This document shows positions 10,805 to 48,823 of a stretch of DNA of 48,823 nt, in pieces (position 1 is the stretch's first letter; the number at the start of each line of letters is the position of its first letter). Position numbers and translations under genes: made by a program. A model generated the notes under the pieces. The model did no database searches. It had not been told where the DNA came from and saw only the letters and a list, made by a program, of their open reading frames with translations. Source of the DNA: Methanomassiliicoccales archaeon (GTDB lineage: Archaea; Thermoplasmatota; Thermoplasmata; Methanomassiliicoccales; UBA472); assembly GCA_028682915.1 (NCBI GenBank), contig JAJRAN010000059.1:1-48823 (forward strand), written 5' to 3'.

Positions 10805-11662
10805 TCAAGCCCGAATCCTTTCCAACCTTTCCTCAATCTCCTTGGGATCCATCCCCACCAGCGGGAAGAAGGCTGGCACGGGGATGTCCATTGTTTTTAT
10901 CCTATCGAAATCCTCGATGGTGTAGCCGAAGACCGCCGCCAAGGCCTTATGCCTCTTGACGGCCTCGGCCATGTCCTGGTCGGATGCTATCTTCAGCGAT
11001 GGGTCCCAGCTCCTCAGCAGCTTGGTAGCGGCCGAGCCATCCTCCCCTATAGCGATGGCGCGGCAGCCGCGCTTCATGATCAGCCATGCGGCGAGCGCGT
11101 CCCTCTCCTCCTCCAGGTTCACCACCACCTTGCCCTGGCTCCCCAAGGGTAGCCCTCCTGGGCCAGGGATGTAGGCGGAGAAGAAGTAGGCCTTCTTATC
11201 TCTGACCTCGGTGAAGATCTCCACATCCGGATCGGTCAGGTTCACCCTTATACCCTTCTCCTCATTGGCCAGGTAGACGGCGGAGCCGAGCTCTCGGCCC
11301 AGGTCCATGGATGTGAAGCTGTGGACCCCGGTCCTTCTGGCACGCACGGCGAAGCTCTGGCCCCTGTGGACGAGTGGCTTAGAGAACTCGGCGATCTTGG
11401 CCTTCATCTCCTCCATATCGCTCGAGCATCGGATGACAGGGGACACGGAGGAGACCCCGAAGACCCGGGACAGCGCGAGGCTCGCCTTCTTCGGGTCATC
11501 GACCTCGACAAAGATGCGGCCATGCTCAGTGGCGACAAGCCCCTCCAGCCCTGAGTTGGCCAAGGAGCTCATTAGGTTGTCTACGAGTATCGACTCGAAG
11601 CGCTTGCGAACGGACCGGCTCTTTAGGCCCATCTCCGCGTATCGTACCAGTATCGACCCCAT
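10805..11662 (-). CDS. ThiI-like THUMP protein with degenerate PP-loop
   Basis: A 285-residue relative of tRNA 4-thiouridine synthetase ThiI. The N-terminal ferredoxin-like segment (ILVRYAEMGLKSRSVRKRFE) and THUMP domain (about 60-165, with VNLTDPDVEIFTEVRDKKAYF) are well preserved, as is the linker GPGGLPLGSQGKV. At the site where ThiI has the ATP-binding SGGxDSxVA loop, this protein reads VNLEEERDALAAW, so the glycines, Asp and Ser are gone. The remaining domain is short but keeps VPAFFPLVGMDPKEI. It may bind tRNA without thiolating it; that is inference. It could be a regulatory paralogue or a decaying enzyme. Confidence 0.85.
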   Translation of the reverse strand: MGSILVRYAEMGLKSRSVRKRFESILVDNLMSSLANSGLEGLVATEHGRIFVEVDDPKKASLALSRVFGVSSVSPVIRCSSDMEEMKAKIAEFSKPLVHRGQSFAVRARRTGVHSFTSMDLGRELGSAVYLANEEKGIRVNLTDPDVEIFTEVRDKKAYFFSAYIPGPGGLPLGSQGKVVVNLEEERDALAAWLIMKRGCRAIAIGEDGSAATKLLRSWDPSLKIASDQDMAEAVKRHKALAAVFGYTIEDFDRIKTMDIPVPAFFPLVGMDPKEIEERLERIRA

Positions 11663-26810: not shown

Positions 26811-26898
26811 TGGTGCAGGGAGGAGGATTCGAACCCCCGAACGCCTTCGCGATGAGACCCTGAATCTCACACCGTTGGCCAGGCTTGGTTATCCCTGC
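26811..26898 (-). tRNA. tRNA-Leu (CAG), CCA encoded
   Basis: Class II tRNA read on the minus strand. The acceptor GCAGGGA (26892-26898) pairs with TCCCTGC (26815-26821). The anticodon arm is TGAGA-TTCAGGG-TCTCA with anticodon CAG. The variable arm is long (TCGCGAAGGCGTTC), as expected for leucine. The T arm GGGGG-TTCGAAT-CCTCC has one G-T pair. Discriminator A and a genomically encoded CCA follow (26811-26814). It decodes CUG, a frequent codon in this GC-rich genome. No intron is seen. Confidence 0.95.
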
Positions 26899-48750: not shown

Positions 48751-48823
48751 GGGCTCATGGTCTAGTGGTTATGACGTCTGCTTGACACGCAGAAGTTCGC
48801 CAGTTCGAATCTGGCTGAGCCCA
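48751..48823 (+). tRNA. tRNA-Val (GAC)
   Basis: A 73-base cloverleaf that ends exactly at the window edge. The acceptor GGGCTCA pairs with TGAGCCC. The D arm is GGTCTAGTGGTTATGACG. The anticodon arm is TCTGC-TTGACAC-GCAGA with anticodon GAC. The T arm is GCCAG-TTCGAAT-CTGGC, with discriminator A at 48823. Whether CCA is encoded cannot be seen. It decodes GUC and GUU. No intron is present. Confidence 0.95.

Follow-up and report, generated by a model that had tools for sequence, protein, structure and literature searches.

The 48,823-nt stretch of Methanomassiliicoccales DNA analysed here (the window) encodes a 285-aa protein that resembles ThiI, the 4-thiouridine (s4U) synthetase, and has no PP-loop for ATP binding. 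The question raised by this locus is what a synthetase-like protein does without the residues of catalysis. An earlier note on the same DNA regarded it mainly as a ThiI derivative turned into a tRNA-binding regulator, or as a helper of another thiolase. The present analysis makes it highly probable that a ThiI split into two proteins has this one as its tRNA-binding subunit.

Gene and domains of the 285-aa protein

The gene was read on the minus strand from ATG to stop as one frameshift-free ORF, and stops are present in the corresponding frame of the plus strand. The predicted features are listed in Table 1.

Table 1. Predicted features of the PP-loop-less ThiI-like gene, in positions of the window
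Feature	Position	Strand	Basis or remark
CDS, PP-loop-less ThiI-like protein, 285 aa	10805..11662	-	proposed tRNA-binding subunit of split 4-thiouridine synthetase
ThiI N-terminal ferredoxin-like domain, residues 4-74	11441..11653	-	Pfam PF22025, 61 bits, complete
THUMP domain, residues 81-160 (putative CCA-end binding, by analogy)	11183..11422	-	Pfam PF02926, 50 bits, complete
Linker GPGGLPLGSQGKV, residues 167-179, conserved	11126..11164	-	sequence and 38-sequence alignment
Degenerate (pseudo) PP-loop domain, residues 177-284	10811..11134	-	profile-profile match and AlphaFold2 model
EEERDA, residues 184-189, where ThiI has the ATP-binding SGGxDS loop	11096..11113	-	sequence and profile alignment
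PLVGMDPKEIEE, residues 267-278, counterpart of RPLIGFDKLEIE of the catalytic domain	10829..10864	-	conservation and profile alignment

In an alignment of 38 sequences, the THUMP residues F104, R110, S118, G126, and V140 were invariant, and R7, K14, R19, and G48-R49 of the ferredoxin-like domain were invariant or at least 90% conserved. The latter residues align with the acceptor-stem contacts of T. maritima ThiI (contacts from PMC4041423). The CCA-groove positions, G126 and V140, are among the invariant or near-invariant columns.

The SGGxDS motif of the PP-loop (archaeal variants, SxGxDS) was not found in the protein. In profile alignment, SGGID(S) of the catalytic family has EEERD as its counterpart, which leaves Asp as the sole surviving residue. 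The catalytic Cys, the CxxC, the third Cys, and the LGQVASQT loop are also absent. Judged from its residues, the protein is predicted to be unable to bind ATP in the manner of ThiI.

The remnant of the synthetase domain is about 106 aa long. The ThiI catalytic domain, PF02568, was matched at residues 228-283 with 18.7 bits, i.e., a remnant below the cut-off of 20.5. TIGR00342 gave 144 bits, below its equivalog cut-off of 264.5, and only model positions 1-202 were covered. In profile-profile comparison, the remnant aligned end to end with stand-alone catalytic subunits (probability 97.4, E 1.5e-11). In the AlphaFold2 model (mean pLDDT 94, pTM 0.87, the C-terminal domain included), this pseudo-domain was predicted as a well-folded alpha/beta domain.

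The closest PDB sequence was 1VBK, P. horikoshii PH1313 (121 bits), followed by ThiI of B. anthracis and T. maritima. The best fold matches of the model were 1VBK (TM 0.85) and the ThiI structures 2C5S/4KR7 (TM 0.79-0.80). PH1313, known as an unassigned "ThiI-like protein", has the same ferredoxin-like domain, THUMP domain, and short PP-loop domain without SGGxDS in the same fold, at 28% identity to the 285-aa protein in structural alignment. A 2023 review described PH1313 as ThiI-like, with its PP-loop domain shortened, several conserved residues missing, and activity unconfirmed (PMC9957541). ThiI/TtuI of T. maritima (4KR6/4KR7), B. anthracis (2C5S), and M. maripaludis share the N-terminal ferredoxin-like and THUMP domains, the linker, and the acceptor-stem positions. 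However, their three core domains are on one polypeptide, whereas here all three are spread over two split proteins.

Matches to the 285-aa protein were found in 184 of 200 Thermoplasmata genomes, nearly always in single copy. This tally takes in the fused ThiI proteins that families f16, f20, and f28 carry, and the other matches are mostly open frames of about 280-310 aa; thus the ORF is not a chance one. In six close pairs of relatives, dN/dS was 0.11-0.24 over the whole protein; the THUMP part gave 0.06-0.15 and the remnant domain 0.15-0.39, which indicates that both parts are kept by selection. The 285-aa protein is neither orphaned nor decaying; it belongs to an old family under purifying selection across Thermoplasmata. 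No viral relatives of it were found.

These results bear out most of what the earlier note had described, i.e., a well-kept THUMP region and linker, the PP-loop lost to EEERDA with the tRNA-binding part retained, a synthetase domain shortened to about 100 residues, a preserved C-terminal end, and an intact frame under selection. Orthologues, whose absence the note had considered, occur across the class, with analogues in Pyrococcus, Thermococcus, and Theionarchaea.

The stand-alone catalytic half and its co-occurrence

In genomes with a protein of the 285-aa family, the missing ThiI catalytic domain was almost always found as a separate gene of about 208 aa, usually unlinked. When the ThiI model was searched over Thermoplasmata genomes, a second match covered only positions of about 174-369, and the open frames that held it were mostly 205-260 aa long. 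Twenty stand-alone catalytic loci were retrieved, and 18 proteins were aligned. SGGIDS and the third Cys were invariant in 18/18, and CxxC was kept in 16/18. The two halves without CxxC, L079 and L080 of family f11, probably have no Fe-S site. In M. maripaludis ThiI, CxxC and the third Cys are the signature that binds the Fe-S cluster (PMC5372739). A further stand-alone half (G146/L076) has SNGIDS. The stand-alone halves match PF02568 along the full length of the model with 189-203 bits.

The best NCBIfam name for the stand-alone half was NF006222 (PRK08349), "hypothetical protein". The P. horikoshii half matched it with 349 bits, and the tested Thermoplasmata members were below its cut-off. 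SSGIDS in the stand-alone half of Pyrococcus was considered as a sign of inactivity and dropped, because fused ThiI of Methanococci and Methanobrevibacter has SDG/SSG at this place. Separately, three full-length ThiI-like proteins of Aenigmatarchaeota (L112, L118, and L132) keep CxxC with the PP-loop motif changed to FNGNCSS, FRGDCSS, and ITGDCGS, which by their motifs may possibly represent a further way in which the ATP loop was lost.

In 168 genomes outside the fused-ThiI families (f16, f20, and f28 set apart), which are related by descent and so are not independent trials, hand counting from the match tables gave both halves in 134, only the THUMP half in 14, only the catalytic half in 16, and neither in 4. 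The two kinds of single-half absence were about equally common, which is the pattern that missing contigs would give. Among the genomes of at least 95% completeness outside the fused families, both halves were present in 49/50, and the single exception was without the THUMP half. In f16, f20, and f28, where ThiI is fused, none of the genomes with a match had a separate catalytic half. In most genomes, the genes of the two halves are not linked; overlapping gene pairs were found at L102, L101, and G228/L244, and neighbouring genes at G106/L074. G106 (L074, L075) has each half in duplicate, and in one of the pairs the genes are divergent neighbours.

The assembly of the window's own genome consists of 1.84 Mb in 148 contigs and is 93.7% complete. 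Neither an intact ThiI, for which the earlier note had proposed a search, nor a stand-alone catalytic half was found in this assembly. In the order, the catalytic-half gene adjoins csl4 and a METTL5-like methyltransferase gene (names from sequence). The csl4 gene was detected at E <= 1e-64 in 11/11 relatives searched, and it is absent from the window assembly, where the search gave nothing beyond a weak match, probably to Rrp4. Since the catalytic half and its usual neighbour are both missing, an unassembled stretch is the simplest reading. The half is likely missing through an assembly gap, and its true loss from this genome was rejected as unlikely.

The other PP-loop matches of this genome are on contigs C3, C50, C67, C96, and C10, and from motifs and family knowledge we take them to be NcsA-like, QueC, GuaA, NadE, and Dph6-like proteins, respectively. 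The NcsA-like thiolase gene (L003, C3, 2-619) is cut by the contig end. On the window itself, tRNA genes for Leu(CAG) and Val(GAC) were located at 26811-26898 and 48751-48823, respectively, with the tRNA-Val gene right at the contig end.

These distributions bear on what the protein works with. The main reading of the earlier note, a regulator or chaperone that descends from ThiI, binds tRNA on its own, and has no role in thiolation, draws on the absent catalytic residues and on the absence of a partner from the window assembly. However, the latter is matched by the absence of csl4, and the reading has against it the near-strict co-occurrence with the catalytic half, the joint absence of both halves in the fused-ThiI families, and the overlapping gene pairs. 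It is accordingly regarded as very unlikely, and the image of a stray ThiI turned regulator is not supported by relatives that carry a separate ThiI catalytic half or by a genome without intact ThiI. The note's other phrase, helper of another thiolase, came close to the answer. With no intact ThiI in this genome and a separate catalytic half in the relatives, the best reading makes the protein part of the s4U synthetase itself, as one subunit of two.

Service to a different thiolase, e.g., NcsA (s2U34), either in place of the stand-alone ThiI domain or in addition to it, would find a candidate enzyme in the NcsA-like protein of C3. It is nevertheless extremely unlikely, as it leaves unexplained the co-occurrence with the catalytic half and the joint loss where ThiI is fused. 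The same grade of improbability, hardly above zero, is given to an adaptor of the Tan1/THUMPD1 type that brings another enzyme, e.g., an ac4C acetyltransferase, to tRNA. Tan1 is a known THUMP partner protein without a catalytic domain (PMC9957541), and Tan1/THUMPD1, the adaptor of Kre33/NAT10, resembles the proposed tRNA-binding subunit in working for a separate catalytic protein. However, its partner and chemistry are different and it has no PP-loop remnant, whereas the 285-aa protein keeps the ThiI-specific linker and a PP-loop-derived C-terminal domain, is nearest to ThiI/PH1313 by sequence and fold, and tracks the ThiI catalytic half in its distribution.

Trees and probable repeated origin of the split forms

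In the THUMP tree, most split Thermoplasmata formed one group (89/79, not starred). The fused genes of f16, f20, and f28 were placed outside the split clade in the trees; in the THUMP tree, those of f16 and f28 were with Methanococci, and those of f20 with Hydrothermarchaeota at weak support. This grouping with other lineages suggests that both halves were seemingly replaced together by fused genes of other descent.

The truncated forms of Theionarchaea and Thermococcaceae were placed elsewhere on the THUMP tree than the Thermoplasmata group. PH1313 and the pair L101/L102 sit among intact Thermococcales proteins. PH1313 thus has a separate origin within Thermococcaceae, whereas the 285-aa protein lies in the Thermoplasmata group, and descent of the two from one already truncated protein was rejected. 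The long-branched truncated Thermoplasmatota rows L126 and L145 lie outside the main group with unsure placement. Counted on starred branches, at least three changes of state were found on the THUMP tree and at least three on the catalytic-domain tree. In Theionarchaea (L106, L107, L188, and L189), the THUMP half was with Thermococcales and the catalytic half was not, as if the two had different origins.

In Thermococcaceae, ThiI above the cut-off was found in 52/61 genomes. Six genomes have the truncated form without fused ThiI, and the stand-alone half was present in 6/6, P. horikoshii (PH1313) included. G240 carries the exact PH1313 sequence, with the partner catalytic half at L233:2684-3289. 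In Thermococcus (L091, L092, L094-L099, and L104), an intact or nearly intact fused ThiI is followed downstream by a second, stand-alone PP-loop protein of the PRK08349 type with SSGIDS and CxxC. In the T. paralvinellae assembly (L097:1905-3668), the fused ThiI has lost the CxxC and the LGQVASQ loop, and the adjacent stand-alone copy is intact. By their sequences, these arrangements look like a path from fused to split forms, with L097 as an intermediate. Truncated, stand-alone, and fused forms occur together in G236 and G250 of the Pyrococcus group.

Since many Thermococcus have the stand-alone half close to an intact fused ThiI, the two can coexist, and the half might do something else there. 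This position would also fit a stand-alone half that makes s4U by itself or with another THUMP protein, leaving the 285-aa protein as a conserved relic with another job. Such a division of roles is very unlikely, because the specificity of ThiI is set by THUMP recognition of the CCA end (PMC4041423) and because both halves are kept in 49 of the 50 near-complete genomes.

It is reasonable to consider that the s4U synthetase was probably divided at least three times independently in archaea, i.e., in Thermoplasmata, Theionarchaea, and Thermococcaceae, perhaps repeatedly in the last, into a tRNA-holding pseudoenzyme and an active PP-loop/Fe-S subunit. Because the remnant domain and the stand-alone half can be aligned over their full length, both proteins hold the same domain, in degenerate form in one and in active form in the other. 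Duplication followed by complementary degeneration fits this better than a cut through one gene.

The proposed split synthetase and its meaning

The reading as a tRNA-binding subunit is based on the domain content, the loss of the ATP site, the co-occurrence of the halves, their replacement by fused ThiI, the adjacent or overlapping gene pairs, the repeated origin, and the purifying selection. What speaks against it is the missing catalytic half in the window assembly, the lack of linkage between the halves in most genomes, the stand-alone half beside fused ThiI in many Thermococcus, and the mixed sets of G236 and G250. By analogy with ThiI, the ferredoxin-like and THUMP domains would hold the acceptor stem together with the CCA end and gauge how far away U8 lies. 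The separate protein of about 208 aa, with its predicted PP-loop, LGQVASQTL loop, and CxxC plus third Cys (probably an Fe-S site), would adenylate U8 and insert sulfur. One pseudo-domain and one active domain would pair into a single working composite site, and the degenerate PP-loop domain is probably kept as a docking surface. We infer in this way a physical complex, s4U8 as its product, an Fe-S cofactor, and the docking role.

Known enzymes offer a precedent for such an arrangement. In Ncs6/Ncs2 (Ctu1/Ctu2), the eukaryotic wobble-uridine thiolase, Ncs2 is a non-catalytic homologue. This thiolase is likewise a two-protein complex of an active PP-loop subunit and a second protein (PMC10067955), although it belongs to a different family, acts on a different site (U34, s2U), and has no THUMP domain. 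ThiI acts in trans inside a dimer held by its catalytic domains (PMC4041423). This geometry of the homodimer would explain how a heteromer could work at once. A dimer of pseudo-domain and active domain would leave one complete site, which may be why the degenerate domain is kept. Irrespective of whether ThiI is fused or split in these species, s4U is present in tRNA of T. kodakarensis (PMC11323500) and P. furiosus (PMC7668247).

PH1313 was already known as a ThiI-like protein, and its pairing with the catalytic half is the new point. No paper pairing PH1313 with the stand-alone protein, or describing a split ThiI or a role of PRK08349, was found in a search that left most subscription journals outside. 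PH1313, whose structure was released in 2005 with no function given, and the "hypothetical protein" PRK08349 would gain a joint and testable job. The split enzyme would supply the s4U machinery for most of an archaeal class that is otherwise seemingly without a complete ThiI. It would also illustrate how an enzyme can be divided more than once into a pseudoenzyme for binding and a subunit for catalysis, with forms in living species that look like intermediates.
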